Below, in pieces: positions 1,621 through 56,342 of a DNA stretch of 64,000 nucleotides; within the stretch, counting starts at the first letter, position 1; every line of letters begins with the position of its first letter. Below the pieces are notes generated by a model. It was not told the DNA's origin and made no database searches. It saw only the letters and a list, made by a program, of their open reading frames with translations. The position numbers and the translations under genes are program-made. The DNA comes from Hymenoscyphus infarciens (lineage: Eukaryota; Ascomycota; Leotiomycetes; Helotiales; Helotiaceae). The stretch lies in the NCBI GenBank assembly GCA_001414345.1, contig LLCB01000197.1:1-64000 (forward strand). The letters run 5' to 3'.

Positions 1621-1857
1621 CAGGGAGAATCATCATCCAGCCTTGTCACTATATCTGCAAGAAAGAACGAAAGCTACCTCGTACTTGTAGTAATTGCATC
1701 TTTTCACATCTTCATTAGCTTTTTTCAAAATATCCCGAACCGGCAGCTCTTCCTAGGGGCTGGGGTAGTTCGGCTGGCTGCCATCCTCCGATATGACGGG
1801 CGCACAAGAGACGTATGTATTTATCACTCAAACTTCCACAAAACGGTATTTTAATTC
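1621..1857 (+). other. Upstream region of the NACHT receptor gene
   Basis: GC-balanced DNA between the transposon end and the first ATG of the receptor. I see no convincing TATA box or other gene. The promoter must lie here or in the edge of the transposon. Confidence 0.4.
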
Positions 1858-4800
1858 ATGATCGATAGCAAAGCTCTATGGCAAGCCGCCTTGAATACTC
1901 TGGATGAAGATGCGAAGCAACGTTTGTCAGCTTTTAACATATCCAAGCTGGAGGTTCTGAACGACATTTTGGAAGCTGCGAAGTCCAAGAAGGCTGAAGC
2001 ATTGGAAGGACGATGGAAGTTTACCCACAACGGACAAACCTACATTGTTCGAGATTATTTGGAAAAGATAATCGTCTGGGTGGAGAAGTTCAAAATCGTG
2101 GGGGACCAAGCAATTCAGTATGACCCTGCCCATGCTGCATTGCCATGGGCCTGCGTTCGTTTCTTCCTCCAAGCTGCCGTCGATAGCGTAAAGACTTTCG
2201 GCATGATGATGGAGAATATTGGGCATATTTCCAACATCATTGCTCGGTCGGCGATACTCGAGGACCTTTATATCAGCAAGAATTTGAAGATTTCAGATCT
2301 GTTGGAGAACACACTTACACGCCTCTACGCCAAAATTCTGGGTTATTTGGCAAAGGCAACAAAGCATTACTCCTCCAAAACGATCAAGAATGTTGCGAAA
2401 AGCGTCTTCGCAGATTCTTCCGCAACTCAATCCATTTCAAGCCAGGTTGCTCTTGAACAAAACGAGATTGACCGTTGTGTGGCTTTGGCAGACGCGGAGT
2501 TGCAAAAACTTTCTGACACCGAGTTCGATCGAACTCAATCTTACCAACATAGATCTCTGAAGAAGCTATTTCAAGAGTTGCAAGAGCCCATTGTCCGGAT
2601 AAGCGCAGATATGTCCCAAATGCTCAAACTTGTCAAAGAAGCAGATCGGATACATCTCCTAAAGTCTATCTCAACAATTCCCTATCCTTCTCATCACAAA
2701 ACCATATCGAGAAGCCGTTTGTCTGGCTCTGGAAGTTGGCTCTTACAGCATCCCGCCTTCATAGACTGGCGTACAAGCAGTTCATCAACAATTCTTTGGT
2801 TGCATGGGATGCCCGGTTGTGGAAAAACGAAACTCTGTTCGATCGTTATTGATGAGATGAAACTCGCAAATTCGAAGGAGGGCTCCGTTGAGCACATTGC
2901 TTTCTTTTACTGCGCCCGTGATCCGCGTGAACCCCTCCGTGGTCAAAGCTGTGCTGTCATGCAAAGTATTTTAAGACAAGTCGTTTCCATGTCGCCAGAT
3001 AAGTCCATACCATTACCTGCCAAGCAGGCATATGATGAGATCCAGAATGAAGGATTCGGTGAACGAGAGTGGACAAAGGAGGAATGTGTAGAGACATTGA
3101 TCCAAATCATGGAAATTTGTCCTTCAGTGACCATTGTTATCGATGCATTGGATGAGTGTTGCGAAGATGAGCGATCCTCACTTCTTCTGGATCTTAAAGA
3201 TTTGCGAGACAGATCTGCAAATCTCATCAAGATCTTCATTTCAAGTCGAGATGACGTAGATGTCTTTTCCTGTCTGGCTGATACATCGGATATTCGAATA
3301 CATGCTGGTGATAATTCGGAAGATATTGGTCGGTTCGTAAGCGAGAGGGTTGGATCCCTGATGGATTCGAGAAACAGCCGGTACGGTCCTGGAACACCTG
3401 GTCTCCAAAAAGAGATCGAGTCAGTCTTGCGTAATGGTGCACAAGGCATGTATGTATAAGAGTGCAAAGTACTATTTTAATTGAAGCTGACTTCTGCAAG
3501 GTTTCGTTGGGTAGATCTCCAACTTGAGACACTGAAGCGTGGAAAACTGGACGAGGACCTTAGAGATCAATTAGGAAGTCTCCCACACACCCTTGAAGAA
3601 TCCTATGGTAAAATATACACTACCATCATTGATTACGGACCTCACGCGAAGGCACTAGCAGATGCTCTCTTCCAATGGCTACTTTATGGAAAGAAAATGA
3701 TCCAGACTGGGGAACTTGCCGCTTTCATCTCTCTTATTACAGGAGCCTCGAAAGTGCCGCTTAGACCACAAAATATGCTAGATATATGTGCAAATTTGGT
3801 TGAGATCGATCCATCAGAGAATGTTTTCCGTTTCGTCCATTTATCGGTCAGGGAGTTTTTTGAAAACTACCAGAAACACGGCATGACAACGTTCACACGA
3901 TCAATAGGCAATGCCTCCCTTGCGAACTGTGGTCTCCTATATATTTGTTTTACACTCTCTCCAGCACGGGTATTGAACCAGATGCCTGAAATTCTAGTCA
4001 AAACCGATATCTCATCGGAGTTGGCATCTCAGAAAGCTGTAAGACAATACGTCGATAGCTACTGGCTTGAACATGCTAAGCTGGGCGGTAAAGACCGATG
4101 TAAGGCACCCTTCCAACCGCTCTTTCAGTTCTTCTTTCATAAACCTTCCGGTGCAGAATCAATACACGAAATCTGGTGTCGCTCTACTTCTTTCCCGGCA
4201 ATTACAACTCCCTCCAACGAAAACCAAAGCGAGTCTGGACTGCAGCTGGAAAAGCGGTGGGCAGCTATTCGCAAACCCGCCCACCATATTTGGATCGCTT
4301 GTGCGTTTGACTTGGATGAACTTGTGGATCCTTGCTTCTGCGATGAGCCTTTGGACATTGAAATGAAGACGGGCGTCCATCTTACACCATTACTTGAAGC
4401 TGCCAGACTTGGAAGTGTGAGCGTCTTCCTCCGTTTGATGGAGAGAGGTGCTGATACTCAGGCTTCGACGCCTCGACATAATAAGCGAGCAATAGACTTT
4501 GCAGTGGAAAACGGCCACCGAATGATAATCAAACAGATTGCTAGGTTTGAACATGTTGACAATAATCTGCTCGAGCTGGTCGACAACACACTAGAACCCT
4601 CTGCTCTAGATGATTACCGAGCACGATTGCTAAAAGACACTCGAAACAACGGGACAGGCTCTCTCGATGATGACACTTATATATATGAAGCACCGTCTAG
4701 CCACGTCGATTTCCTCTCACACCACTGGGAGGATCAAGATATCTTAGCAACCTGGAGATACACCATTTCGAATCGAAAAGTTTATTCCAAATATGCTCGC

Positions 4801-5414
4801 CTTGAAAATATGTGCTGGAGAACTTGGGCAAAATCAATGAACAACATACAAACTTTGTCTCCCGTAGAAATCAACTGGTAAATAAGGGGTTCTCGTGCAT
4901 GAACTTTGTTTTAACTCTTACTAGGCTCAAAGACTGTGATGTTACTTGGTTATACGGCCCTCTCAAATCTGGTAGTTTCGATCTGTTTCAGAGTCAAACA
5001 GGAACAACTGCTACCAAGATACATGAGCCCAAGAACCAAGGGACAAATATGAAGTCAATCCTCAAAACCGGCGCAAGCACAATGTCTGCAAGATTCAACG
5101 CCCCACTTGCTCCTTTCGATCGGGCGGCGGACTTACAAGCACGATATCCTTCCTTGGACCAGAAGTACATAGATACGCTCTCGAAAAAGCTTTCACCTCC
5201 ATCTGCCACCGCTTCAATCGATGGCCAGTCAAGACATGTACAGTTCAATGAACAGGTTCGGCAGTGTATCGCGGTTACTGACCCCGAATACGAGGGAGAC
5301 AGCGATGATGAAACTTTAGGTATTATTCTTTTTGGAGAGGGAAAGAGAAAGAATGATAAGAATATTGCGTTACTTCCGGACACCTCTCTAAGGGCCTGTT
5401 TGGCACACATATAA
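1858..5414 (+). CDS. NACHT-domain STAND/NLR receptor with ankyrin and C-terminal Reg1-like PP1-regulatory module
   Basis: Exons 1858-3449, 3501-4877 and 4925-5414 give 1152 residues. Introns have GTATGT/GCTGAC/CAAG and GTAAAT/ACTAG signals. Residues about 10-260 resemble the fungal NACHT N-terminal helical domain. The NACHT core has P-loop GMPGCGKT (317-324), Walker B TIVIDALDEC (425-434) and FISSRDD (460-466). VHLSVREFFE (643-652) is the usual winged-helix region. Two ankyrin-like repeats lie at about 822-875. From 930 the protein matches the fungal Reg1/DUF1752 family: FLSHHWEDQDI, RLENMCWRTWAKS, LKDCDVTWLYGPL, the PP1-docking RVxF-type RHVQF (1093-1097) and IALLPDTSL. STAND proteins act in fungal non-self recognition; the partner here is unknown. 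The last seven residues come from an inserted MITE. It could instead be two genes misread as one, but both splice junctions keep frame. Confidence 0.8.
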
Positions 5415-5829
5415 TTTAATTTAGATATATGAGATTTGTGCACGAGTACAGAGTCAAATGGTGCTCGTATATTTCTAATTTATTATAGCTTTTTCATAAA
5501 TAGATTTAATTACTGTTTGGCTCATCGTGTATATATCGGTGCACATATCAGAGAAGCAGGGCTGTCTAGTACTAATAGTGGTAGAGATTTAATAATATGT
5601 ACATATATATAAAAGTTGAAGGTCAAGAGGTCAAAAGAGTATATTGATTTAATTTTAGTGGTGTACATCTTCGTGCACATATTTAAAGGAAGTGCGAGCA
5701 AAAGTGCATACTGTAATATATGCTAGCTAAACGTTGGTGTACGTCATCATAATATGTATGTATATATTAAATTTTCTTTGGTGGTGCATATATTAAAAAA
5801 GGACTAATATGTACGAGCCAAACAGGCTC
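5392..5829. mobile_element. 438-bp MITE inserted in the last exon of the NACHT receptor
   Basis: Ends are GGGCCTGTTTGGC and its inverted copy GCCAAACAGGCTC, flanked by a TAA target duplication (5389-5391 and 5830-5832). The 3-bp TWA-type duplication and GGGCCTGTTT ends are typical of PIF/Harbinger (Tourist-type) elements. There is no transposase, so it is non-autonomous. It is little mutated compared with the copy at 63031-63446. Removing it with one TAA joins the receptor frame to 5833-5924. Confidence 0.9.
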
Positions 5830-6569
5830 TAAAGTATACGAAGGTTATAGAAGTACAGCAGGCATACTCCCCTTCTCCTTCCTCTTTTCCCCCACTAGAT
5901 GATGACAATGATACTTTTTTTTAGCCTCATTCAACAAATATTCTTAGACAAAAGCAATAATCAGAACAACTTGAAGCATTATGTACAAATCTTTAGAGTG
6001 TTGTAAATTAATCCACCCCGAGTCGCTTAGCACATGATTTATCATTTAGTATAATCATAACAAATGCTACACATTTACTCGAGTAGTAACCTGCTTATCG
6101 TTTTTCGATTTCTTTTCAGGTCTCATTGTTATTGTGCCTAGACCTAGTTTAAATCCAACTTGGATTATCAATATCTTCAAGCATCCACACCTGCTCTACT
6201 TCGAGCTTCAAAACTGTCTTACAATCACTGCTTACGATCTACTACCCGTCGTCCAAAGATACGAGTCGCTGTACTTTCTTTTACGAATAAGATTCGATGG
6301 GTTATGAAATTTATTCAGTGGTTGACTACTCTAGTTGAGATGCACAAAGCAAGGGTTTCAATACAATACAAATGCCATAAGCATAGTAAAGTAAGCTGAA
6401 TAGAAACGGATAGCTTCAACTAGATATTACTATAATATAAGACGGCATGGAAAATCAGAAAGGGGAGCCTTGTTTGAACAAATCCCATTTCTCGAACTTT
6501 TTAACAAGCAGAATACTCATACATCAACCCCCCCCCTTCCCCCAAACATACCTTACAACCTCACCATAC
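5830..6569 (+). other. Displaced receptor tail and 3' intergenic region
   Basis: Bases 5833-5924 are the original 3' end of the receptor reading frame. Without the MITE the frame reads LPDTSL-KYTK and on to a TAG at 5922-5924. The remainder up to the MEF2 stop codon shows no supported gene, only AT-rich DNA, short open stretches and a C-rich run near 6530. Confidence 0.7.
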
Positions 6570-30740: not shown

Positions 30741-31724
30741 ACTTACTTGAATTGTTTTAGAACTTTCGAGATTAAGAGTTGATTTCGTAGCTTACTTTGA
30801 GAGTAAGATAGTAAGTATAGAGAATACTTTAGAGATAAAGAAGTTTCCTTTTCAAATCCGATACTATAGATATATTTTCAGCGTATAAATTTCTATATAA
30901 TATAAAACTTTTTATACTAAAAACTCGTAGTTAGCTTACTATAATTATTTATTAAGCTCTAGTATTAATAAGAATAGTATTTTACTATCTCTTTAGTTAT
31001 TCTTATACTCTACGTGATTTAGTAGAACGCGGTTCTAATCTTATATTTCTAGCTCTAACGCGACTAAATAATTATATTATTCTCTTATTCTTTAAACGCT
31101 ACTAAAGTATATAATAATACTAATAGAAATTTAATAATTATTTACTTATAATCTTATTTTTAAAAAGCTCTAGTGAAAAAATTATTATTTTAGTATAAGT
31201 TAGCTTAGATATAATATTATTATAAGCTAAGTTTTCTCTATCTACTTCTACTACTTCTACTACTACTTTTCTACTCTTTTCTTCTTCTTTTTACTTACTT
31301 CTCGTACTAAAAGTCTATTAAAAGAGTCTTAAAAGCTATTAAAAAGAAGAAAGTCTTCTAGAAGTATATTATATATACTAACTTCTATATATATATAAGT
31401 ATATAAAGAACTGCTTACTTATAGATAAAGTAGATTAATTATTAAAGAATATATTAGTAATAGCAGACGTTTCTAAGTTTATACTATTATATCTAGATAC
31501 TTCTTTCTCTACGTCTATTAATTTAGATTTTAATATCTTAGTACTCTTAAACTAGTTTAGTAGTATTATAGTTCAAAGCTATCTAGATTTTAGTCTAAAA
31601 CTACTCTAAATAAGAGTAGTTTCTAACTAGACTACTAAGCACGTCTATACGTAGAGTATAGAAATAACTAAAGAGATATTAATAATAGGAGAAAAAACTA
31701 GTTAGTAAGTAGTATTTCTAGCTC

Positions 31725-34171
31725 TATAATAGTATGCTATTATTCTAGATAGCTAGAAGTACCTGTTATATATAAGGTTTTAGTAGTTATTATCTTATAT
31801 TATCTGTTTTAGAAAGGTTACGTAGGTTCGAGCTTTTATATTAGCCGACGTATAACGTTAGTCGGTTTCGGACCTTTTAGTCCGAACCTCTTATATATAG
31901 TAGCCTACTCTTAGAGTAGAAGAGGGATAGTTTTTCCTTTTCTTCTATATTAGTATCTAGTATTTATATACGTTATTTAGTCTCGAACGTACTCCTATAT
32001 ACCTCTTCTCTTATAGTATATATTTTATACTATTATATAAAAAGGAAAAACTCTACTTTACTAGTAATAGTATTTATAATATCTCTTTAAGCTTATTATT
32101 ACTTTTATTTCTTTTTTAAGCTAGAATCGGACCTAAATAACGCTATTCTTAAATAGCCGGGATTCTAGAGATCTCCTAAATAGCTAGTAATATTAGAGTT
32201 TAGTATTAGTTTTAGATAGCTAGTAAAAATCGTGTCTTATACGTTATAGAATTTAAATACGCTAAGTATTTAGAATCCTAATAACCCTCTCTATATAGAG
32301 ACTACTATATATAGGTTTAGTAAATAAGTCGACATATAAAGTTATCTAGAAGGCTTCTAAATCTAATCTTACCTCTCTCTCTCTAGTTCTACTATAAGGC
32401 GTTAAATAACCTTCTAGAGCTATCTCTCTTTTTAAAAGACTCTCTAAACCCTCTCTAATCTATAACTATATACTAAAATAATAAGAGCTTAGCCTCTAAA
32501 GATAACCTTCCTAAATTTAGATAATATATAGATAATAGATAGATAAGATAGAGGTAAAGAATATAAAAGATAAAACGATTAGTTAACTAAGAGATAGAGG
32601 ATAAAAACTATAAGCGAACTTTAAAGTTAAAAACACTCTCTAAACTCTTACTAATCTAACTCTCTTTTAAACCTTCGTTTAAACCCTTCTTTACTTTTTA
32701 AAAGCCTAAATTTAGACCTCTTTTACTTAAGAGACACCGCTACCTCTAATGCCTTTCTATTACTTCTCTTAAATTAGATATAAATTAGTTAAAATACGCT
32801 TTTTATTAAGATTAAAGAAGTAAGCTCTTAGCTAAGTTATCGCTATTAATCCCGACTAAACATTATCTAAAAGAGATAGAAGTAGAATTAAGAAGAAGAT
32901 TTTACTAAAGAAACGTTCGCTTTTCAAGTATAGCTATACTTAGAGAGATACTAAAATCAGAACACTTCTTTTATATATAGAATAAGATTACACCTTAGCT
33001 CTAAAACCTGTCTACTACGCTTAAGAGATACTAGAATTATAACTTTACTAAGAAACACTTCAGTTTAGAATACCTCTCTATCTAGCTCTAAACTCTCTAT
33101 AATCTAATAGTAACTCTTCTTCGAAATCAGAAGATAATAAATAAGTCCTTAAGTATCTTAAAAGGAATAAGGTAATATAACAACTTCGGTAATAACTTCG
33201 CCTTTAACTAGCTAAAACTATCTCTCCTTTTTATTATTCTAAACTTTAAATAACGTTTATAACATTTAATAATAAACACTTTTAACTAGTTAAAACTCTA
33301 CCGACTCTAGTATAGAGTCTTATAGTCTTTACTTTCTTACTTTCTTTTACTTCTAGCTAGACTAGAAGTTCTTTTTTATTTAAATTCAAATTAGATATAA
33401 ATCAGTATACTCTTAAAGTAAGCTCTTAACTAAGTTATTACTACCTCTTAACTGAACAACTTTCAACTCTACTCTAACTTCGCCTCTAACTCTACTTTAA
33501 ACTTTTTCTAATTTTACTTTAAACTTTCTCTAATCTACTAGATAGATTGAATAACACTCTTTTAGTAAACGCGAATACTTACTTTAATATAAAAGGATTA
33601 GAAACGAAGTCTCTTTTATAAGCATCTACGAATTAGGTTAGTTATAATTCGAAATCGATATCTCGTCTTAGTTATAATAATTATAATAAATAAAGCATCT
33701 ATAAACCGGGTTAGCTATAATTTAGACTCTAATCTACCTTCTTACTTATAATAAAATCAATAAATATAATAAATATTATAATACTTATACTATCCCGATT
33801 CGACCTTAAATAATAAGAGATAGAAGACTTAGAACGAGTCTTTTTTAAAAGAGAGAGATATAATAGTATACTATTATTCTAGATAGCTAGGAGTACCTAC
33901 TATCTATAAGGTTTTAGTAGTTATTATCTTATATTATCTATTTTAGGAAGGTTACGTAGGTTTAGGCTTTTATATTAGCCGACGTATAACGTTAGTCGGT
34001 TTCGGACCTTTTAGTCTAAACCTCTTATATATAGTAGCCTACTCTTAGAGTAGAAGAGAGATAGTTTTTCCTTTTCTTCTATATCAGTGCCTAGTATTTA
34101 TATATATTATTTAGTCTCGAACGTACTCCTATATACCTCTTCTCCTATAGTATATATTTCGTACTATTATA
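31725..34171. mobile_element. Complete LTR retrotransposon, RIP-mutated, non-autonomous length
   Basis: LTRs at 31725-32037 and 33859-34171 are both exactly 313 bp and align along their full length. The element is bounded by the 5-bp duplication AGCTC (31720-31724 and 34172-34176). LTR ends read TATAATAG...CTATTATA, explained by RIP changing TG...CA to TA...TA. The internal 1.8 kb is too short for gag-pol and full of stops. Superfamily cannot be told. Confidence 0.88.
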
Positions 34172-34357
34172 AGCTCTTATATATATAAACCTATCTCTTA
34201 TATTAATATTATTTTCTTAGTATTATAACGAGTCGTTATATAGCTAAAGATTACGTAGATAATACTACTGCTTTTCTAGTATAATAGAATAGCGAATTAT
34301 TCTACTAGTTAACTCTTATATCTTTTAGCTTACTAGCGTAGTAGTTGAAGCTATTTA

Positions 34358-34721
34358 TATAATAGCCTATTATCTAGGCTATTCTAGATAGCCGAGATTA
34401 TATAGTATATATTATATATATAAGGTTTTAGTAGTTATTATTTTATATTATCTAATTTAGAAAGGTTATATACGTCTAGGCTTTTAGACGTACTTTATAG
34501 AGTTTAGGCTTTTATATTAGCTAACGTATATCGTTAGTCGGTTTTAGACTTCTTTTATATTATCTAAACCTCTTATATATAATAGCCTACTCTCCTAGAG
34601 TTAGAAAAGACTAGTTTAGCCTTTTCTTCTATACTAGAGCTTAGTATTTATATATATTATTCTGTCTTAAACGCACTTCTATATATCTCTTTAGTAGTAG
34701 TATCTCTTTCGTACTATTATA
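34358..34721. mobile_element. Solo LTR of the same family as 31725-34171
   Basis: It starts TATAATAG and ends GTACTATTATA as in the complete element, and shares long blocks such as TATATAAGGTTTTAGTAG and CTTATATATA. It has about 50 bp extra. Flanks are ATTTA (34353-34357) and ATTCA (34722-34726), a target duplication differing by one C to T change. Its unoccupied site is present at about 35180. Confidence 0.8.
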
Positions 34722-35044
34722 ATTCACTCTACTAATTATTATAGAAGAATTAATCTAACTAGTAACTAAGATTCTAAGACTTTAGCTAGAGATATATATA
34801 GTAGTAAATAACGTAAACTATACTAGAATTAGCGTTATATTAGCTATATAGCGTATTAGCTCGCTAAGCGAGAACTGAGACACTTAAAAATATTATATTC
34901 TAAATACTATAACACGTATAGTCTCTAAGAATATAAGTGATTATACTACTATAGAAGTTATTTAGTCTTATAGTTAACTATCTCGCGTACTCTAAAGACT
35001 ATACTAAGACGTTATAGCTAAGAGTAGCTACTCTAGAAGTAGAA

Positions 35045-35205
35045 GAGCTATAATATACTATTATATAGCTAGAGGTTATATAGGTAATACTACTACTAAC
35101 CTAGTATAGTAGAATAGTAAATTATTCTACTAGTTAATTCTTATATCTTTTAACTCGCTAGCGTAGTAGTTGAAGCTATTTACTCTACTAATTATTATAA
35201 GTATC
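35045..35205. repeat. Duplicate of 34205-34357 plus 34722-34742 without the solo LTR (empty site)
   Basis: The sequence matches the left flank of the solo LTR (CTAGCGTAGTAGTTGAAG, CTATTTA) and runs directly on into its right flank (CTCTACTAATTATTATA) with no LTR between. It therefore shows the pre-insertion state in a paralogous copy. Confidence 0.75.
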
Positions 35206-37255
35206 TACTTTATTAATTTAACTACTTTTTCGATATTTAAATAGCTTTAATTATATATTACTTAAAGATCTATATATTAAAAAAGATATTAAATTAATAG
35301 TATTAGTATATTTTTATTAAATATCTAGTTTAGTACTTTTAAGAATAGTAGAGTATATATAGTCTTTTAAAACTAGCTATATTACTAGTATTAGTATATT
35401 CTAAGATATATAACTAAGTTTAGAATTATAAGTTTATTATTTCAATTACTAATATATCTTTTTTATAAATATTATTAGTTCTAAAAGTCTTAAATATAAA
35501 GTAGTTTCTTTTTAGAATTATAAAAATTATTAAAATTAGTATAGTAGTTATTTAAAATAAATAAAAACTTATAGCTTAGTTGAAAATTAGATATTTTAGA
35601 GACTTTAGAGTCTTAAAAGTTATTAGTTTCTAGTTAACTTAGAGTTATACTATTAGATACTTATTATAGTATAATAACTTTAAAACGCTTTTATAAGAGA
35701 GAACTAGATATAGATTATTATAAAAGTTATTAAGAATTATAATTTAAGTAAAAAAGTTAGATCTTTTATTACTAATAATATATTAGATAATAATAATTGT
35801 CTTTAGTTTATTATAAAATAATTCTATTTATATCTTATATTAGAAGAGTATAAAAGCTAACGCTTATAATTTCTAAAGTATATTATTAAGCTTACTATTA
35901 AAGCTTTTATATATAAAATATAATTTAATATTAAAGAATTAGATATATTAGCTATTATATAAAATATAGCTTTTAAAAAGAAATTAAATCTCTAATAAAA
36001 GTAAGAACTTCTTAGAAAGCTATATATTAAATAATCTATGATATTATAGTATTATCTTACTATTATAAATAATTTAAAAATCTTAAAATAATAGATAATT
36101 ATAGAGTTAGTTTTAAAAAGAAATCTAAATATCTCTAGATTTTTAAAAATAATTTAAACTAGTAGAATTTACTATATATAATAGGTAAATATACTATTAA
36201 GATTAGAAGCTATAATAAATTATCTTATAAGTAGAATACTCGTACTATTTATAATAGTAATAATAAGCTAGAAAAATAAAGAATATAGATTCTAAAACTT
36301 TTTTATATAATATACTTAACTCTAATAACTATTACGCTCTTAATAAGATTTAATATATCTTTAATCTCTTTTATAATCTTATAAATTAGATTAAAGAAAA
36401 TTTAATATTATTTATTTATAAGATAGTCTTAGTTTATATAGTAAGATTTAATAAACTTAGTAAATATATATTTAAGTAAAATAAGATAAGTTAGAATTAA
36501 AAAAGAATACTAAGTATAATATACTAGCTTTTAAATACTTTTATATATACTTAAAGAATTATTAGATTAAGATTAATAAATACTTTAGTAAAGCTATACT
36601 AGTATATTATATTTTAATTATTATAAACCTTTATAAAGAAAAATACTCTAAAATAAAAGAAAGATAAAGAAGTCTAAGTTATAATATAATTAAGCTTAGA
36701 AAACTATAGAATAATTATAAAAGAGCTCTAGAATATATATATAGATTACGTAACTATACTCTATATAAAAAGCTTAATATAGCTGCTTTTATATATTTCT
36801 ATATATATTAGATAGTTCTTAAATTAGCTCTTTTATATAGTCTTTATAATTAGAATCTTTTGAATATTTTTAATAGATTAAAAAGTAGATAAAGTATTTA
36901 TAAAAGTTCGTATAACTTACTAAACTAGTTAGTTCTTTTATAGTATATAAAAGAGTATTTTTAATAAGTTCTTATCTAGCGGTTTTAAAGTATTATATTT
37001 TAGAAACTTCTTATATATATATAATAAAGCGAGCTATCTAATCTAGATAATAGATTTTCATAAATTAATTAATAAGAAGAAGTAAGTATACTAAGTAATT
37101 TACTTATAAGTAAATATATTACTAAAATTAGAAATAATAAAATAAGAATTATAATTAAGTTAAAAATAAAGCTTTTATATAATAGTAGAGATATAAGCTT
37201 ATATAGACTATTTATACTTTTTAAGCTCTCTTTTACTATTAGAACTCTTAGGTCT

Positions 37256-38323
37256 AGCTATATAACGATATAAACTATATACGACTATTAAAGAGATATA
37301 TAGAAGTATATTTAATAGAATAATATATATAGATACTAGATACTAATATAAAAGAAAAGACTAAATTAGCTTTCTCTTATTCTAAATAAGAGTATCTATA
37401 TATAAGAGATTAGATACTACTAAGGTCTAATAATAATATTAATTAAGTTCTATCTAATATAGCTAAGACTAAATAATAAAAGCTAAAAAGCTAAATATAT
37501 AATATCTAAACTTTACTCTCTTTTATATATAACTAGTAGATATTAATATCTTTAGTATCTTTAGTTATATAAGTATTAGTAATTTATACTCTCGGCGTAT
37601 AAGTATTAGTAGTTTTATAAATACTAGTAATTTAGAATAGCGAGCTATTATAAGCTAGATCTTATAAAAGTCAAATAAAGTCTATTATATAATAACTAAT
37701 AAAGAAAATTCTTAGGTTACTTAGCTAGTTTAAGAACCTTTTCTTTTACTATTTCCTTCTTTTCTAAGTATATCTTATTTTATTAAAATACTATCTAGAT
37801 TTATTTATTATATCTATATATAATTTAGTATAATATAGTTATTATAAATTAACTTCTAAAAAGCTTCTAGTATATAGAAAACCTATTTCTCTATAGTTAT
37901 CAAAAGTAATTCTAACTTACTAAACTATATAGTTATAAAGATATATAAGAATTAATATTAAAGTAATAGTATAATAGCTTATTATTTGAAATTACTAAGA
38001 GTATAAATTATTAATACTTATATAACTAAAGATATTAAAAGTATTAATATCTAATATTTATATATAAAAGAGATTAAAGTTTAGATATTATATATTTAGC
38101 TTTTTAGCTCTTATTATTTAGTACTAGCTATATTAGATAAGTCTTAGTTATTATTATTAGACCTTAGTAGTATCTAATCTCTTATATATAAATACTTCTA
38201 CTTAGAATAAGAGACGACTAATTTAGTCTTTTCTTCTATATTAGAGTCTAGTGTTTATATATATTATTCGACTCTTATATATCTCTTTCGTAGTTATATA
38301 TACTTCGTACTACTATAAATAGT
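37256..38323. repeat. Large inverted repeat formed by two opposed LTR-like copies
   Basis: Arms of about 340 bp (37256-37600 and 37988-38323) are reverse complements with RIP-type differences, around a spacer of about 385 bp. Shared blocks include AAAGAGATATATA, TCTTATATATA and TATCTTTAGTTATATAAG. The arms resemble the LTR family at 31725-34171 (CTTTTCTTCTATATTAG), so this seems to be two insertions in opposite directions. Confidence 0.65.
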
Positions 38324-39357
38324 TTCTAAAATTCTATTTTATAACTAAATAAAACTAAAAGTTCTTAGAATCTTTTAAAATCTAAAATTCTTATATACTT
38401 AGTAGCTTTACTTATAAAAAATAAAAATAATAAGTATAATAAGAGCTATAATTTACTAAGAGTCGATTTTGAGATAAGTTAAACTAAGAGTAGATATTTC
38501 CTAGATCGCTATTATCTTAGTTTCTTAGATACTCTTTTAGCTAATTCTATCTATCTAGAAAAGTAGATAAATAAAAGTAAAAGATAATATAGAATTATAT
38601 AAAGCGAGTAGAGTTTAGCTAAAATATCTAAGAGCTTATAATAATAGTTTTAGTATTAAGTATAACTTTTTATATTATAAGACTCGCTTTTGTATTAGCT
38701 ATATTATAGCTAATTTAAAAGCTATTAAAAAAAGAAATTTATATTTAAATAGTTCTAATTCTAATTTATATTTCTTATAAAAGAAAGTCTAGATTTAAAT
38801 TATAATTCTATTATAATAATATAAAAGGTAAGCTCTTTTCTTATATAATATAACTTTCTAAGAATAATAATAATATAAGTAATTTAAAAGCTATTAAAAA
38901 AAAGATTTATAAATAAATAGCTTTTATTTTACTTTAACTTTTATTAAGCTAGATTTTTAAAAGAAGAGTTTATTATTAATATATATTAAAAAAAACTAAG
39001 AAAGTATAAAACTAACTTTAGTTTTAAGAATTTTAAATAAGTCTATATAATAGTAACTAAGTATAAATAGAAAGACTTTTAATAGATAAACTAGAGATTT
39101 ATCTAATACTTCTTAGAAGAGATTTTAATATAAAAGAGTAGTTATTAAGAGATTAATAGCTTAAAGTACTTTATTAAAACTAAATCTATATTTAGTACTA
39201 AAGCTATTATTATTAGATCTTAGACTTTTATAAAAGAAATATTATCTTAACTAAGTATCTTTTCTTTAATTATTTAGTCTATTTTATTATTAAGTAGATA
39301 TAATAATTCTTCTTTTATAAGACTAAGTAGCTAAGATAAGAGCGCTATCTAAGATAT

Positions 39358-39905
39358 AATATTATACTATATAACTAAGCTAATATTCGCAGAGTCTATT
39401 CTATATACGCGCTATTAGTTAAAATAATACTATTTAGTAGTTATTTTAGATAAACTTTTATATTATTCTTTCTTTAGTATAATAGTTATCTTATATATTA
39501 TATAAACTAATAGCTAGTAATATAATATACTACTAAATACCTAGGATTTATCTCGAGCTCTTAAATCTAATAGTAGACGATTTTATCTTAGTACTATATC
39601 TCTAGTATAAGATATACTCTTAGAAGTTTAATATATATTATTCTTTTAACTACTTTTACGAATATATCTAGTAGATTACTTTATTAGAGCAGGGTTTATA
39701 ATTCTATAAGTATAATCTAGACTAAGTAAGAGAATATATAATATTAGACTATATAACTAGGCTAATATTTATAGAGTCTATTCTATATATACGCGATTAG
39801 TTAAAAGAATACTGTTTAGTAGTTATTTTAGGTGAACTTTAGTATTATTATTCCTCTGGCGTAATAGTTACCTTATGTATTACGCAGACTAATAGCTGGT
39901 AAGAT
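39358..39905. repeat. Direct repeat pair, 165 bp, unequally RIP-mutated
   Basis: Copies at 39358-39520 and 39740-39905 share GCTAATATT, AGAGTCTATTCTATATA, TTTAGTAGTTATTTTAG and ACTAATAGCT. The right copy keeps CTGGCG and CGCAGAC where the left one reads TTTAG and ATAAAC. They may be LTRs of a very small element, but I could not fix the ends. Confidence 0.55.
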
Positions 39906-40128
39906 AACAAAGAACAGAAAATACGGTCACGTGGAAGCCTTTCTAGACATGGTTAGCGTTGTCACCGGGTTCTAATGTCAACTTACATGCCTAATGCGGT
40001 GGAACCTCTCTAGCCCGCGCTCGCTGCGATATATTTGCTTCAATCTCAAGAGACATTTATCAATAATCATTCATTCTGTATCTCAAAAAGAAATATCTTT
40101 CTTTGTCCTTGATTAAATTCAGACCCAA

Positions 40129-47802: not shown

Positions 47803-50100
47803 CTTGTAGGTTGGGTTGTGTTCCAAACTGGCAGAAGAGTCTTGGGGGTTCCAGGTTGTTGTCGCTCTCTGTCGGGGTTGAGTGGAGGTTGAGATATCTT
47901 CGATCTGGGAGAGACAGCTGGAGAGAGACAGCTGGAGAGAGACAGCTGGAGAGAGATAGCTGGAGAGAGACTGGAGAGAGACTGGAAGTCTGACGTTGAT
48001 GGCGCCTACCTTGACCTCGACCTCGACCTCGGTCTACCTCCTGCAAAGAGGCTTGCAAAGGTATGAAGTAGTCGCAATGGAATACCATCCACCAGAGTCC
48101 GAAGCTCTTCGGTGGTGGTTCGCCTGGCCTGGTCTGACTTGGAGGTGTAGATGTCGATAGACACGCTTCCCTCCCAAGTTGAGTGGTGAAAGTGGTGTAA
48201 ATATTTATTCTGCCGCCAGTGGAAAATTAAGTTGTAAGCGACGGGAAGCAACTCGAGTCGCGACTTCCCCAACGACCCCATTCACTCCCATCACCGCAAG
48301 AGAAAGGTTCAAGAATATCAAAACACAACATTTCGCGAATGTCGCAGAGGGCGATACCTCACCTCCGATGAGTTGGAGCTGAAATTCCACTAGGTTCATT
48401 CCATTCTCTTGCATTCTAAAAAGAGGTTGCGAATTACTTTTTTGTTTGAGCGAACGTCTTTCAGAACGTCTCTCTTCGGGAGCTCGCCGCTGCTGATCAA
48501 AATGCTGCTGTCGAGTTCTCCCAAAAAGTGTCTGGAAAGACGCAACATTGCGACGGACAGAGAGGAAAGTTTGCAAGCAAGAACAGGAAGCATACCCTTT
48601 CCTCGAGACTCACGCTGCTTGAGATCCCGACAAGAATTCTAGCAAAATGAGGCTATCCCAGACAATGACAATCGGCAGCCCTCCCAGCTTTACTTCAACA
48701 GTATGCTTGTGCCTGGGAGGTTGGAAGCAAATTTGCTCCTCTTTAGCATCGACCCAAAAAGGAAGGCAATTCTCGCACTACAGATGGGAAGCAACTACTG
48801 TAGGTGAAAAGGATGAGATTGAGGAGTCCTTGTTCTACCTCTCGTCGAAAACATTCTTCTACTTGAAAGTTTTACTGACACCAAGCATTTAGGAGAACTC
48901 GGAAAACCCGTGCGCTGTAGTCGAATGATACCAACTTCCTAATTAAGCCTCCCGAAACAGAGGTGAACCGAGTTTTTCTCGAGGCAATCAGCCATCCTGG
49001 CGAATGGATCGACAGAACCAAGCATATCCTTCTGCGGTGTAGGTCTGAAGAATTTCATGTGATTGCGAGAGGAGTATCGCTTCTTCCTCCTTCACCCTCC
49101 TGCCCAAAGGGGCACCACGCCGGAGGAAGTACAACGAAAGACTTCAACCCTACAATCTGATTGCCAATCTGCAAACTCGAGCTTCCAATCAATTATTGCC
49201 AAACCTCAGTACTCTTATCTCGCACAAGTGGAAGGCAGATATGAAAACGTATTTTGGCTCTCTGCCGACTACCGAGAAGAAAACATGGGTTTACTTTACG
49301 AGTGGAGTTTCCAAGTTGTATAACGATGGAACATGTCTCTGCAATTGAGATTCTGCAAGACTGGCGGCCGCAACATTCCACAAGACGATGAAAGGCACAG
49401 CCTTATTTCGACATGGCGAGAGAGAAAGGGGGGTGGACTGTGTCAGGGAGGCCGCTCGCAAACTCCATACTCTAGTAATAAGGTTTCGGGGAATTCTCGG
49501 AATGATCTTTCGTCGAGTTGAAGAGATTGTTCATGAAACGCCCCAGTTATTTGGAATGCAATCTGGTGGGTAATGTCAGAACCTTCAGGCTCAAAGAATT
49601 TTGCCAAGCGGAGGAGAGCGAAGTAGATCTTTCACTGATCCGTGTACTTTTCCTTGGTAATTAATAGGAACTCGATACATTTTGCCATTGACAGAACAGC
49701 ATCACCGACCAAGTTACAAGGTCGGCAGGCCTTGGGGGCTAATCGCACAGTAGAGAAACACGTCCTTGGGAGAGGGATAACGATCCACAAAAGTCTGCAA
49801 GATGCCCAACTACATACAAGGCCTTTGCATGAACGCGTCGAGGTTTCGTGCCATACGGACATGGTTTATGTCGGGCTGTTTTTTCGATATGGCAGGAGGA
49901 TTGACTCCAGGTGGCCGAGACCGACATGCCGCAACGACAGAAGAGGGGAGGTTATGTTAACGTTTTGGGTGGCACACTCACAAAGCTTATATTGACAGAA
50001 TGTCCACAGACATACCTCTTGGCGATAGCATCACCACCGATTACAGGACTACTGGTACCTCTATGGAGATCGCACCACTGGCACGCGGTTTTAAATAAGC
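47803..50100. other. Gene-poor GC-balanced region
   Basis: The promoter of the FG-rich gene lies at the left, with a 14-bp minisatellite. The rest has many short open frames on both strands, none with a recognisable domain or good codon use. It may be an old decayed region that escaped RIP. Confidence 0.4.
47905..47985. repeat. 14-bp GCTGGAGAGAGACA minisatellite in the FG-gene promoter
   Basis: Units start at 47917, 47931, 47945 and 47959, 14 bp apart, followed by two shorter CTGGAGAGAGA units. The array ends about 110 bp upstream of the ATG at 47802. Confidence 0.85.
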
Positions 50101-50299
50101 CCTGACCCTCCGCAGGGCTGCTTATACCGGCTATAACTAGCCCTCCTAAGAGCCGTGTAACTCGGTTAAAACGTTGCGACGCGGCAACTACGCGCGGCAG
50201 CTAGCTACACGCTGAACTAAAATAAGGAAGCCCGAGGATAAAGACGCGATATAGCACGCGCATAGCTATAGGCTATCTAGATAGACTATAGTATAATAT

Positions 50300-50920
50300 T
50301 AGAATAGTAATAGTAAATATAACTTAAATAGACGAAGAAGTCTAAACTTTACTTTCTAGACTTTAATAGACTAATAAGTCTAGAATATTTAATTTATTAT
50401 ATAGATTATATATACCTTTTAATAACTAATAGACTAATAGTATTAGAATATTTATGCCTTTTAATAGCTAATAGACGAATATATCTAGAATATTTAATAT
50501 TTTATATATCTTATATAAACTCTTAAATAGCTAATAAGTCTATAATATTTAATTTATTATTTAATTTATTATATATATTAATAATAGCTCTTAGTATTTA
50601 ATAGTCTAGTAAGCTTAAACTAACTAAATAAAAAGTTATAATATATATACTCTTTAGTTTTTAATAGACTAATAAGTCTAAAGTAATTATATAAATATAA
50701 ATAATATTTAATATATATACTTTTTAGTTTTTAATAAACTAAAAAATCTAAGATAATTAGCTATTTTAGATATTAGTAGTTTAATAAGTCTTAATTAATT
50801 AAGTAAATAAATAAAGTTTATAATAAAATAATTAGTCTAAAATAACTATATAAAGAAATAATCTATATATATAAAATCTAGACTTTTTAGATTTTAATAA
50901 GCTAATAAGACGTTTTATAA
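50300..50920. repeat. Degenerate subterminal repeats with AATAGACTAATAAGTCTA
   Basis: AATAGACTAATAAGTCTA and variants recur about every 50-70 bp, each followed by GAATATTTAAT-like sequence. These look like subterminal repeats of the surrounding DNA element. Confidence 0.65.
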
Positions 50921-50923
50921 TTA

Positions 50924-52972
50924 TTATAAGAGTAAATAGCCTCTTATATACTAGTTATATACTATAAGAGGTTATAGTACGTATAGAGTAGGCTATAGAG
51001 TAGACTAGAAGTACGTAAGTTAAATTAGTATAGAGTAGATTAGATAATCGCTAAATCACGTTTCTAAGAAGTCGAAGTATAAGATAAGAGTAAAGACTTA
51101 AAATTAACTTTTAACTTAATTTCTAATTATAAGAATACTAGAAGGCTATATATACTTCTAGAGTAAATACTAGAAGCTTCTATAGCTTATAAATCAAAAA
51201 GTTACTAGAAGATTCTAAAGATTATATATTTACTTAACTATAACTAAGAACGTAACTAAACCTTCTAGATAATACTAGAAAGAACTAGTATAGACTAAGG
51301 TTTAAATCTAAAGTCTATTAGTAAGTAAGGTAATTATTATCTAATACTAATATATATATACTCGCTTAGCTAGCGTTCTTAGCTATAAGTAGATAGCTTT
51401 TTAAATTTTAAGCTCTTTATATATTTCTAATATAGTAGTAATATACTCGGTTCTACGTATCTACTAGAGTTACTACTATACGCTCTTTTTATAAACCTTA
51501 TTTTTAAAGCTTTAAGCTTCTTTTACTTAATAGTATAAACCTATTCTACTCTTACGAAAGTAACTAATTTATCTACTTTATAAAAATAATAATTTACTTA
51601 ATCTACTATAATAATAGACTCGAATAAGAAGCCTAAGCCTAGTACTAGTATTCTCTTACTTATAAAGAAGAACTTTAATAAATAGATAATCGATATTTAT
51701 ATCTTACTTAACTAAAATAAGCTATAGAAGATTATTATAGAATAGTATCTTCTAGCTTAACTTTCTAATAACGAAAAGAAGACTAAACTAGAAAAGGAAA
51801 AGCTTATTAAATATTAAACTAAATAAGTATAACTTATTAAAGTAGTTAATCTTATTATACTTTATTTCTTATCTAATATTAATTATAAGCTTAAAAATAG
51901 AGATTTTAATAATAGTTAGCTTCTTACTCTAGACAACTAAACTAGCTTTATAAAATCTCTTATTTAGCTTCTTATCTACTACTACGATAATACTAAAAAT
52001 ATAGAAGAGTATTTATAAGAAGTTAAGACTCTTATTAAACGAGTTAACTTCTTTAACGTCGTTCTTACTTCTAATATATATATAATTCTTACTCTTACTC
52101 TAGGACTTTATAATTATAAGTCTTACTAATCTATTATATAACTTTAGTAAATTAATAATATTACTTTTATAAATAAAGTAATATAAATAGTTTAAGACGA
52201 AATAGTATATAAAAAGAAAGCTAGTTTTAGTAGAGATAGTACTTTTTTAGTCTACTAAAACTCTAGTTTCTTAAAATATATAAAGTATAAGAAGTCTAGC
52301 TATAAAAGTAAGAAATACTAGATTAATAAGACTTATAACTATTATAAAAGGAAGAGATATATTAAAAAGATAAAGAAGTATAATAATAAGAATAAGAAAA
52401 GATATAAAGAGAAGAATAGAAGCGAATTAGATAGAATAGAGAAGGCTTTTAGCTATACTTCTCTTTCTTAATAAACTATATAATATAAACGATATAATAT
52501 AATATATTAGAAACGAGGTTCTTAGATTTATTAAGAGATTAGCTACTTCTTAAAAGACTTAATAAGAGAGTAGTCTCTTAGGATATTTTAAAGAACTTAA
52601 GTCTATCTTTAGTTTTTAGAATATTTTAAAAGACTTGAATTTGCTTTTAGTTATTAGAATATTTTTAAAAGACTTAAGTTTATCTTCGGATTTGCTTTTT
52701 ATAGAATATTTTTTTAAGAGAAATAATACTTTTTTTAGAAAGATAGAATATTATATTAAAAGAGACGCTTTTAAAGATAATTTATAGAAAATAGATAAGA
52801 AACGAAAGAGAAATAAAAGGTTATAAAGTAGTATTACTTAGAGAGAGATATTATAAGAGTAAATAGTCTCTTATATACTAGTTATATATCTACTCGCTTA
52901 GCTAGCGTTCTTAGCTATAAGTAGTTAGCTTAGATAGCTTTTTAAATATTAAGCTCTTTATATATTTCTAAT
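50924..52972. mobile_element. RIP-mutated LTR-type element with one LTR longer than the other
   Basis: The right repeat (52851-52972) matches the left one in two halves: 50924-50961 (AGTAAATAGCCTCTTATATA) and 51358-51430 (CTCGCTTAGCTAGCGTTCTT), with about 400 bp more in the left copy. Between the repeats, near 52320-52470, one frame reads a Lys/Arg-rich stretch with tyrosines where a RIP-mutated gag zinc knuckle would have had Cys and His. That reading is an inference. Confidence 0.5.
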
Positions 52973-53225
52973 AATAATTAGGCTCTAGCTATCTATATAT
53001 CTATATATTACTATATCGCGACTATATTACTATTAGTAGCTCTAGTAGTTATTCTATAACTATGTTATAAGCTAAAGCTCTTCTCTTAGTATTATTATAT
53101 TATTCTATACTCTATTATAATAGCTTAGACCTCGCTGAGTTATAACGCTCTAACCGAGTTATATAGCTCTTAGGAAAGTCTATTATAACTAGTATAACTA
53201 GGTCTTAAAAGCTTAAAAGAGTTAA

Positions 53226-53883
53226 GACGCGCTATACTCGTAGCTGGATTCCAACCGTTATCGTCGCTCCTTATCACTAGTATCGGGATCGACAACTTTA
53301 AGAACCTGCCCTCAGATCATCTTCTCTCCTTCCAACGTCGGCGAACTACTGCAGCGAAATCTGAAGAATTGCGGCGATATCAACGTCTCATCGTCCCGCC
53401 GATGGAGCCTGTCCTGCTACCACCCCCACCCAACTTTGGTCCTGCTAGGCAGGCTTTTTACTTCACACGGTCGGTACCTAGCCTTGCGCATTCCTCCGCT
53501 TCCACACGCTAAGCCTATAGGAAAAATTATTTTGTTAGGCCGCTCTAAGAATCTTCAAATCTTCCTCCGTCATTCCCAAATAGCCTAGCTCCTTCACCAG
53601 TAAATGGCAAACATGCGCTGGTTAAAAATATATTGCCTGATAGTATTTGGAATGTTGTATATGCCACATTTCCCCAGATTTCGCCATGTTCTTTTGATTG
53701 TTGCGTATCACATGTCATATACTGTAAGTTTTGTAATATAGGAGTTTACGGTATTACACTGGCAAGCGCTGGCAGTTGGAAGCATCCATCATACGGGGCT
53801 TTCTACAATTGAAATGCCGAGGCGGGAGTCCGTTTTCAAGGCCTAAACGACATTGGTCCGATCAAGGAATGATATACGTATAC
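53226..53883. other. GC-rich island between two transposon blocks
   Basis: Composition is suddenly normal. A frame open from 53282 to the TAA at 53510-53512 reads IDNFKNLPSDHLLSFQRRR and a proline run, but starts after a stop and has no start codon of its own. It may be the last fragment of an old gene. The rest shows nothing. Confidence 0.35.
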
Positions 53884-56342
53884 ATCTTACGTATACGCGG
53901 CGTACTCTAAAACACACTTATAGAGACCGCGCGCTATACTAAGAACCGGCTCTTAGAGAGCTTCAAAGTCTAGTTAACGTATTCTTAACTAAAGAGCCTT
54001 ATACTATAAGTCTATACGTAAAAAGTATTTTTATAATAAATTATTAGATTTATAAAAAAGTCTATAATTTAATTAGAAGTAGATATCTATAGTAATATAT
54101 TCTATTTCTTTATAAAAGCTTAGTATATCTTCTCTATAGTCGTAGATTAGTACTAATATTTATAAAATACTTATTTAATCTACTACTAGTACTTCTTTAT
54201 AGAAAAAGCTCTATATATATAAATCTATAATACTAGACTTATAAGTAGTGAAATAGAGAAAATAAAATCTAAAAGAGTTTATTTCTCTATTAAATAGAGA
54301 ATATATATAAAAGAGAAATATAGTTATAATAGCTAAGATAGATTACTTATCTACTAAATAGAGAATAAGAGTTAATAAAATTTTAATTTATAATAGTTTT
54401 AATCTTTATTAATTCGAAAATATATATAAAAGAGATATATAAAATAAGAATAGCTAAAAAAGTCTAGTTCTTAACTAAGTAGAGAATAGAAGATAAAATA
54501 GAAAGTAATAATAGTTTTAATATCTACTAAATAGAAAATATAAGTAAAAGAGCTATATATAGCTATACTATCTCGAATAGTTTAAATCTCTACTAACTAA
54601 AGAATAAGAGTATATTTTAATAATACTCTTTTTTAATTAAGAATCTATTTTAAAAGTTTTAAGCTTTTTGAAATACTAGTTAGAAGTTAATAAGATTTAA
54701 CTAGACTATATAGATCTTATTAATTAACTAGATATAGAATAGTATTTTAATAATAGTAACTATAAGAGAGAAGAGAATAGTTTATAATATAAATATTTTT
54801 AAAAAAGATAAAAGTAGTCTTTTAACTTTAATTATATTATAAACTTTTATTTAAGCTATATATACTTTATATAAGAAGGTCTTAGTCTTTTCTTTTAAAA
54901 TATAATTAATTAATAAAACTTCTATTCTTTCTTATAAGTTAAGATTCTAATCTAGCTACTACTATTAGATAAAAACTAGTTAAGCTTTTACTTTTTATAT
55001 AATCTTTTACTTTATTTTTATTATTAGATATTTATCTAAATTAGTTAATACTCTAATACTTTAGAGTTAAAAGTCTTTAACTTAATTATTTTTATATATA
55101 TATCTTTTAAAAGTTATTTTCTTTATTTTCTAAATAATTTTAAATTTATAATTCTAGTAAACTATATTATTAATATATAATATAAATATAAAGGTTTATA
55201 AGTTATAAATTTACTTTAAAATCCTATTTTCTAGTACTTTTAAAATAAAATTTCTTTTTATATATATACTAAGTTATTAGTATCTAATAGATATTATTTT
55301 TAATACTCTTTTTATTTATATAATAACTAAAAAGAAACTTAACTTTAAAGTAGATTATATAGCTTTTCTTATAATAATACTAGTAGATTAGAATTAGATT
55401 ATAAAAACTTTATATAACTAAGAAGATTCATTAAATAGAACTAAAATAATATTTAATCTATAAATCTACTAACTTTTGAAATTCAAAATTAATATCTTTT
55501 TAAGTCTATAATTTATATTATACTTACTAGATATTCTTTTTTTACTTACTACTTAGTAGAGAACGAGACTATTCTAGCTATAGATATCTCTTTTACTTAT
55601 ATAATTAACTTAAAGATTAAAACTATTATAGTTTTATATTATATTTACTCTTATTCTCTACTTAATAGAGAACTAAGCTATACTAGCGACTATATTTATA
55701 TTTATTCTTTACTTCTTATTCTCTACTAGTAGAGAATTTAACAAAGCTAGTTATATATTTTTTATACTTTTAATCTCTACTTAGTAAAGAGACAATTCTA
55801 GCTATTATAGTTATATATATTATTCTTTATCTTATTTTCTACTTATAAAGAAGTAGAGTATTCTAATATCTATAGTTATTTTTCTATATTTAATTCTTAT
55901 TCTCTATTTAGTAGAGAATTAGACTAATCTAGCTTTTTATCTTCTCTACTCTTAGTCTCTACTTAGTAGTAAATAAGAGAATTAAACTATTATTATTATA
56001 TATATTTTTTACTCTTATTTTCTATTTTATAAAAAAGTAGATAAATCTAGCTTTATATTTTATATACTCTTATTTCTTAATTTATAAAAAATTAGTCTAT
56101 TTAAGCTATTTTAACTATATATATATATCTATTTTACTTATATTCTCTACTAAGTAGAGAATATAAGTATTATTACTAATTTTTACTTAATAGAGAATTT
56201 AACTATTCTAGTTATTATACTTATATATCTCTTTACTAGTATTCTCTACTTAGTAGACTTTATAAAACTCTAGGAGCTAGTTCTTAGTATAGTACGCGGC
56301 CTCTAGAAGTAGGTCTAGTAATAGAGTTCGTATAGGTAAGAT
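53884..56342. mobile_element. Full-length TIR transposon with palindromic subterminal repeats
   Basis: Left end 53884-53975 and right end 56255-56342 are reverse complements over about 80 bp (CTATACTAAGAACCGGCTC against CTATACTAAGAACTAGCTC), with RIP-type differences. Between them, 54280-54610 and 55550-56270 carry decayed CTCTACTTAGTAGAG palindromes; 56151-56170 is a perfect example. The same ends and palindromes occur at 1-1620. The 2.46-kb interior has no surviving frame, so the element is non-autonomous or destroyed. Confidence 0.7.

Follow-up and report, generated by a model that had tools for sequence, protein, structure and literature searches.

A gene predicted at positions 1858-5414 of a 64,000-nucleotide stretch of DNA from Hymenoscyphus infarciens (contig LLCB01000197.1 of GCA_001414345.1, a genome assembly of 65.6 Mb; the whole stretch is referred to here as the window) encodes a protein of the NOD-like receptor (NLR) type whose C-terminal module derives from Reg1, a regulatory subunit of protein phosphatase 1 (PP1) that acts in sugar signalling. 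On the evidence of sequence comparisons the NLR-Reg1 fusion is real and recurrent: protein searches found five other fusion clusters, all from Colletotrichum and Fusarium (Sordariomycetes). A first-pass annotation of the window, made from the sequence alone, had named as grounds for rejection that the two parts might always be separate genes in homologues; in these five Sordariomycete homologues they are fused.

The gene, together with all of its parts described below, lies on the + strand. The predicted model has three exons that specify 1152 amino acids with zero internal stops. Exon 1 (1858-3449) encodes a helical N-terminal domain and a NACHT NTPase; exon 2 (3501-4877) encodes a winged-helix region, a short ankyrin stretch, the junction and the start of the Reg1 module; and exon 3 (4925-5414) contains the LKDCDVTWLYGPL, KSILK, RHVQF and IALLP blocks and ends with a stop codon at 5412-5414. 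Both introns are of the GT-AG type. Intron 1 (3450-3500) falls at GM^FRW, a site at which the frames of two NACHT genes elsewhere in the same genome (C24 and C514) are also interrupted, as judged from the frames and not from splice sites. Intron 2 (4878-4924) is in phase 2, at TG^G of NW^LKDC. The splice junctions of the first-pass annotation, 3449/3501 and 4877/4925, are exactly those of the predicted exon model.

A gene model that artificially joins two neighbouring genes is an extremely improbable explanation for this arrangement. A single open exon spans the junction: exon 2 is open over 459 codons, compared with a longest frame of 260 in 2000 random sequences of equal length and the same dinucleotide make-up. 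No methionine occurs between residues 872 and 968. The identical junction is found, moreover, in proteins of Colletotrichum and Fusarium that were annotated separately; in the window and four full-length relatives the tail begins with a D[DE]...PS..VD.L stretch that follows a short ankyrin part. On these features of the sequence, two adjacent genes mis-joined were ruled out.

The Reg1-derived module as a whole occupies 4660-5390 (from approximately residue 918, with intron 2 inside). Its core, at 4753-4833 (residues 949-975), matches the GATA_AreA/DUF1752 profile (PF08550) with a Pfam E of 1e-5 and passes the curated cut-off (25.7 bits against 20.9). Alignments of the tail with annotated Reg1/Hex2 proteins extend over as much as 100% of its length, the best having E 7.1e-34 and 35% identity. 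The earlier proposal of a Reg1-like module within the NLR frame was borne out. The Reg1 blocks present are HVDFLSHHW, RLEN..WRTW, LKDCDVTWLYGPL, KSILK, RHVQFNEQV and IALLP, of which LKDCDVTWLYGPL is the best kept, ahead of the docking motif RHVQF. A set of 141 housekeeping Reg1 sequences (140 from the database plus the Reg1 of the same genome, hereafter own Reg1) has 131 columns that are conserved in at least 90% of rows; 66 of these are retained in the window tail, 61 in Fusarium sarcochroum P0031, 56 in F. torreyae P0032, 48 in Colletotrichum abscissum P0025 and 39 in C. lupini P0030, the model of which leaves the frame. Several blocks have changed or been lost. KSILK replaces KPILK in all three fusions that keep the block (window, P0031 and P0032), while [KR]PIL[KR] is found in 137 of the 140 database proteins and KSIL in two. 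P0025 is without KSILK and IALLP, and P0032 without part of the DUF1752 core. The C-terminal Reg1 helix motif TVNTA[RK]D..H...NVGW, which matches 112 of the 140 database proteins and own Reg1, is unmatched in the window and its five relatives.

As would be expected for an NLR with an integrated (decoy) domain, the same genome has the housekeeping Reg1 as a separate gene. It is located on C180, has two exons encoding 576 amino acids, and is 90% identical to the Reg1 of Hymenoscyphus albidus, its best match among 189 proteins compared. A second Reg1-like gene (C323:14500-22000; 492 amino acids, with WLYGPL and a KSVRF motif) is much diverged from own Reg1 and has the same intron. The position and phase of intron 2 are shared by own Reg1, which reads AAT TG^G TTA, and by the C323 gene, which reads AAC TG^G CAA, and on the basis of this shared phase-2 intron the tail likely derives from genomic Reg1 DNA, not from a processed copy. 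Judged by the ordered conserved blocks and the shared intron, the tail is of Reg1 origin.

The fusions outside the window comprise P0025 (a cluster of 6 members), P0030, which departs from the Reg1 frame after NW, P0031, P0032 and P0146 of C. salicis. The last is partial: its 674 amino acids are without the part that matches approximately window residues 594-970, and its Reg1 tail is degenerate (WLYGP, KHVRF). When 49 NACHT relatives were interrogated with a hidden Markov model of the Reg1 core, whose training set included the window tail and three of the proteins later found, with P0030 and P0146 outside it, these five matched at E values of at most 3.2e-12, and none of the remaining 44 gave a match better than E 0.097. 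The protein searches scored only candidates sharing most words (7992 and 7986), so further fusions may exist; in one search the best 120 of 359 matches were listed. A quick tree of the NACHT part, with long rows and support from the Shimodaira-Hasegawa-like approximate likelihood ratio test (SH-aLRT) only, covered P0145-P0183 and omitted P0184-P0189. In this tree the window and the five fusions form one clade (SH-aLRT 100), P0146 having entered as a non-fused protein whose Reg1 tail was recognised afterwards. Within it the four Sordariomycete copies of full length make up a group of their own (SH-aLRT 98), with the order among the window, P0146 and these four not settled.

The history of the fusion can be approached through both of its parts. 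NACHT identities are 65.3% between the window and Colletotrichum, 64.9% between the window and Fusarium, and 72.8% between Colletotrichum and Fusarium; for full-length Reg1 the same comparisons give, in order, about 61%, 55% and 62%, which resemble the NACHT figures. Vertical descent fits the NACHT tree, P0146 (a long row) apart. Two histories would be compatible: descent from before the split between the classes followed by many losses, and an old transfer. In trees of the Reg1 core the fusions group at 90/86 in a first tree, which included 65 of the 140 database proteins and is a hint only, with bootstrap not settled and long branches meeting, and at 73/84 in a second, which included 32 of the 140 and on which topology tests were based. 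P0030 was cut after NW in the first tree and left out of both the second tree and the constraint comparison below; P0146 was in none. The approximately unbiased test gave p-AU 0.148 for the window tail with Leotiomycetes Reg1, 0.434 for the Colletotrichum tail with Glomerellales Reg1, and 0.55 when the Fusarium tails are placed beside Reg1 of Hypocreales, an arrangement that outscored the free tree by 1.39 log units. A recent local copy of own Reg1 was also considered as the source of the window tail and is disfavoured: the window core is 58.7% identical to own Reg1 and 64% identical to other, more distant Reg1 proteins, with the tree test not rejecting a position beside own Reg1 and H. albidus Reg1 (p-AU 0.085).

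One way to ask what has been retained in the tail is to compare sites. The window tail keeps 36 of the 44 most invariant Reg1 core columns, a comparison with the housekeeping consensus that is biased toward invariant columns; comparison of fusion with fusion is fairer, its pairs being non-independent. Across four fusions (six pairs), core columns that are invariant in Reg1 are 69% identical and variable ones 35%, a split which indicates that the module still follows the Reg1 site pattern. Over 75 columns the cores are 54.7% identical between the window and P0025, 57.3% between the window and P0031, and 56.0% between P0025 and P0031, while three housekeeping pairs (own Reg1, C. melonis and F. 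lateritium) are 80-89% identical over the same columns. In the same proteins the NACHT part, with identities of 65-73%, has changed more slowly than the tail. Either an arms race or partial relaxation would give such a pattern.

These data bear on the possibility that an NLR acquired a fragment of Reg1 which has since been tolerated, decaying, without function. The long branches of the tails suit such neutral decay, as do gaps and motif losses in several copies and the insertion, in the window copy, of a miniature inverted-repeat transposable element (MITE). The MITE (5391-5830, 440 bp, no strand assigned) has terminal inverted repeats AGGGCCTGTTTGGC / GCCAAACAGGCTCT and lies within the 3' coding end, directly after IALLPDTSL, so that the final seven residues and the stop codon are of MITE origin, a feature that the first-pass annotation had not remarked on. 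Counting this copy, the family has 43 genomic matches; the others are 71-85% identical, and members are often preceded by TA. P0025 ends before the IALLP block, and the protein may therefore tolerate losing its very end. Set against neutral decay are the presence of a tail or its remnant in all six known members, across two classes, the site-specific constraint, and a frame that is intact over three exons. We regard it as distinctly unlikely.

Within the module, RHVQF (5232-5246, residues 1093-1097) is a predicted PP1-docking motif of the RVxF type. RHVQFNEQV aligns with KHIHFNEQV of own Reg1, and an H[IV]xFN context is present in 113 of the 140 database Reg1 proteins; the docking motif proposed at first reading thus agrees with both the RVxF consensus and own Reg1. 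The full pattern [RK]x[VI]xF is satisfied by the window, by P0025 (KHVHF) and by P0146 (KHVRF), and the V and F are kept in all five readable copies, the P0030 model being unreadable at this point. A passage of PMC6506691, a review, treats Reg1 as an RVxF regulator, and according to part of PMC12520357 the RHIHF of yeast Reg1 is required for binding of Glc7, with F468C acting like a nonsense mutation.

This evidence invites a reading in which the tail is a guard: its RVxF motif would keep the catalytic subunit of the cell's PP1 bound, and the receptor would fire once PP1 is inhibited or removed. Conservation of V and F in five copies, with the full motif in three, would be expected of such a guard, and the yeast requirement points the same way. 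The two Fusarium copies have nevertheless lost the basic residue, P0030 contributes no readable motif, and the best-kept block of the tail is LKDCDVTWLYGPL, not the docking motif. On balance the guard is rather unlikely; it is also a bolder claim than that of a sensor or bait, to which we turn after describing the NLR on which the tail is carried.

The N-terminus of the window protein contains a predicted helical DUF7708 domain (2080-2481, residues 75-208; Pfam E 6e-10, above cut-off). The same region is also matched by NACHT_N, a Goodbye-like profile, at 28.1 bits, below its cut-off of 30; a passage of PMC9815663 groups NACHT_N with Goodbye-like domains and describes a four-helix core common with HeLo/MLKL. 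The NTPase (2725-3249, residues 290-464) is of the NACHT type: NPHP3_N matches above cut-off with E 5.3e-36, the NACHT Pfam profile itself is below cut-off, and the motifs GMPGCGKT (Walker A) and IVIDALDE (Walker B) are present. A weak ankyrin stretch follows (4294-4542, residues 796-878), where Ank_2 is below cut-off (E 0.011). Of the NACHT and ankyrin parts named in the first-pass annotation, then, the NACHT part stands, through NPHP3_N, and the ankyrin part is weak. The predicted model of residues 1-530 (mean predicted local distance difference test score, pLDDT, 78) consists of a helical N-terminus followed by the NTPase; in a fold comparison, which matched mainly the NTPase part and assigned no fold to the N-terminal domain, it resembles STAND/AAA+ NTPases, including Cdc6/Orc1, CED-4 and plant resistosomes. 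A search of PDB sequences listed 60 matches, mostly ankyrin-repeat chains with no bearing on the tail.

For the tail itself, a predicted full-length model was available from the Colletotrichum relative P0025 (not from the window). It has three ankyrin-like helix pairs and a chassis that is folded as far as approximately residue 866; the tail is unfolded (pLDDT about 23-38). A flexible, exposed arm would be expected to look like this in a model; a thin alignment could also cause it.

Another NACHT-ankyrin gene of the same genome (C24:222500-229500, 1782-5089) was observed to be preceded by a RelA_SpoT domain (PF04607, E 2.1e-10), which PMC12258605 gives as a canonical N-terminal domain of fungal NLRs.

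By a hand count, ankyrin matches in Pfam occur in 32 of the 44 relatives without the fusion, and passing Ank_2 stretches number 8 in P0145, 3 in P0147 and 4 in P0151. In the window protein a truncated Reg1 module occupies the place held in many relatives by ankyrin arrays, and it is chiefly this position, in place of repeats, that leads us to read the tail as a sensor. A C-terminal extra domain on a tripartite fungal NLR is also the position proposed for kinase decoys in PMC12258605, which supports the same reading. We give about an even chance to the view that the tail is an integrated sensor, or bait, for the Reg1-PP1 pathway, carried on an NLR-type NTPase. The bait would mimic the Reg1 subunit of PP1, and might still contact PP1 (RHVQF fits RVxF) or another Reg1 partner. 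Its binding or modification by a non-self factor would free the NACHT domain and trigger oligomerisation, with the helical N-terminus providing a cell-death or signalling output. Candidate triggers include a mycovirus, a bacterium, a mycoparasite, a competitor toxin or an incompatible partner. The decoy reading suits the anatomy of the protein, from which it is inferred.

A more elaborate version, also rather unlikely, is that of an ancient receptor for phosphatase sabotage. The Reg1 module would have been gained before the split between Leotiomycetes and Sordariomycetes and would have kept PP1 docked since, with cell death ensuing when PP1 is displaced or inhibited, or Reg1 attacked, by a virus, a microbe or a competitor toxin. 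The opposite direction of information flow is that of an output module, in which the activated tail brings PP1 to Snf1 or its substrates and so couples recognition to glucose repression. The tail has both the DUF1752 core and a docking motif, as such a module would; the known effector domains of fungal NLRs, however, are N-terminal, with C-terminal parts being read as sensors (PMC12258605, PMC9815663), and the C-terminal helix motif of Reg1 is unmatched in six of six fusions. We consider this explanation quite improbable.

Several observations weigh against the sensor reading. The motif reads AHVHF in P0031 and PYVHF in P0032, such that V and F are kept and the basic residue is lost, and the PF08550 profile is unmatched in P0032. 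P0030 departs from the frame after NW and P0146 has only a partial tail, P0146 also standing apart from the other Colletotrichum copies in the NACHT tree. The native 3' end of the window copy is interrupted by the MITE. Rapid divergence of the tail also fits relaxed constraint. Separate integrations are not rejected by the Reg1 core tree, for which the core is short, and the cores are nearer to housekeeping Reg1 (window up to 64%, P0025 up to 68%, P0031 up to 61%) than to each other. The fusion is rare, and an H. albidus fusion is absent among the matches listed.

The DNA surrounding the gene has features of its own. Upstream, at the contig end (1-1514), is an AT-rich tandem array of approximately 27 copies of a 56-bp unit with a palindromic TTCTCTACTAAGTAGAGAA core. 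Two AT-rich blocks (31001-40000 and 50001-56000) are mostly 16-28% GC, with one kilobase of 42% (53001-54000), and the gene-bearing stretches beside them are about 45-50% GC.

Little is settled about what fungal NLRs sense. A fragment of a self protein that recurs within one such receptor names a candidate pathway, the control of glucose repression and AMPK by Reg1-PP1, and with a candidate target pathway named the search for a ligand is made concrete. If the tail is a sensor, integrated-domain immunity would reach two fungal classes and take in a phosphatase regulator, and some attacker of fungi may be suspected of targeting Reg1-PP1.

Comparison with known systems places the window protein between several of them. 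In plants, NLRs with integrated domains carry a host-derived extra domain that is read as a decoy. The extra domain is alike in the window protein, and the plant lineage differs in its NB-ARC/LRR architecture. The DUF7708-NACHT-ankyrin NLRs (P0145, P0147, P0151; Trichoderma, Daldinia, Vezdaea and others) have the same chassis and are 34-39% identical; they carry long ankyrin arrays, whereas the window protein has a Reg1 tail instead. With Reg1/Hex2 the tail shares the PF08550 core, LKDCDVTWLYGPL, KP/SILK, the RVxF-type motif and IALLP in the same order, as well as the intron; unlike Reg1/Hex2, it is without approximately the first 150 residues and the C-terminal helix, is fused to an NLR, and has KSILK for KPILK. 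In our literature searches, the coverage of which excludes most subscription papers and supplements, Reg1 within an NLR is unreported, and NACHT proteins and Hex2/Reg1 are separate table entries in the part of PMC4713082 concerned. The initial statement that no such system had been described therefore holds for Reg1 in the literature searched. It does not hold for integrated decoys in fungal NLRs: in the main text of PMC12258605, where Reg1, GATA and PF08550 are unmatched, a C-terminal CHK2/PRD-4-like kinase is already proposed as an integrated decoy in T-NACHT NLRs of Sordariales. The window protein is like these CHK2-kinase NLRs, as there described, in being a tripartite fungal NLR with a C-terminal copy of a conserved core signalling protein; theirs is a kinase domain, in Chaetomiaceae and Podosporaceae, whereas the type in the window carries a fragment of Reg1 and is found in a Helotiales-like fungus, Glomerellales and Hypocreales.

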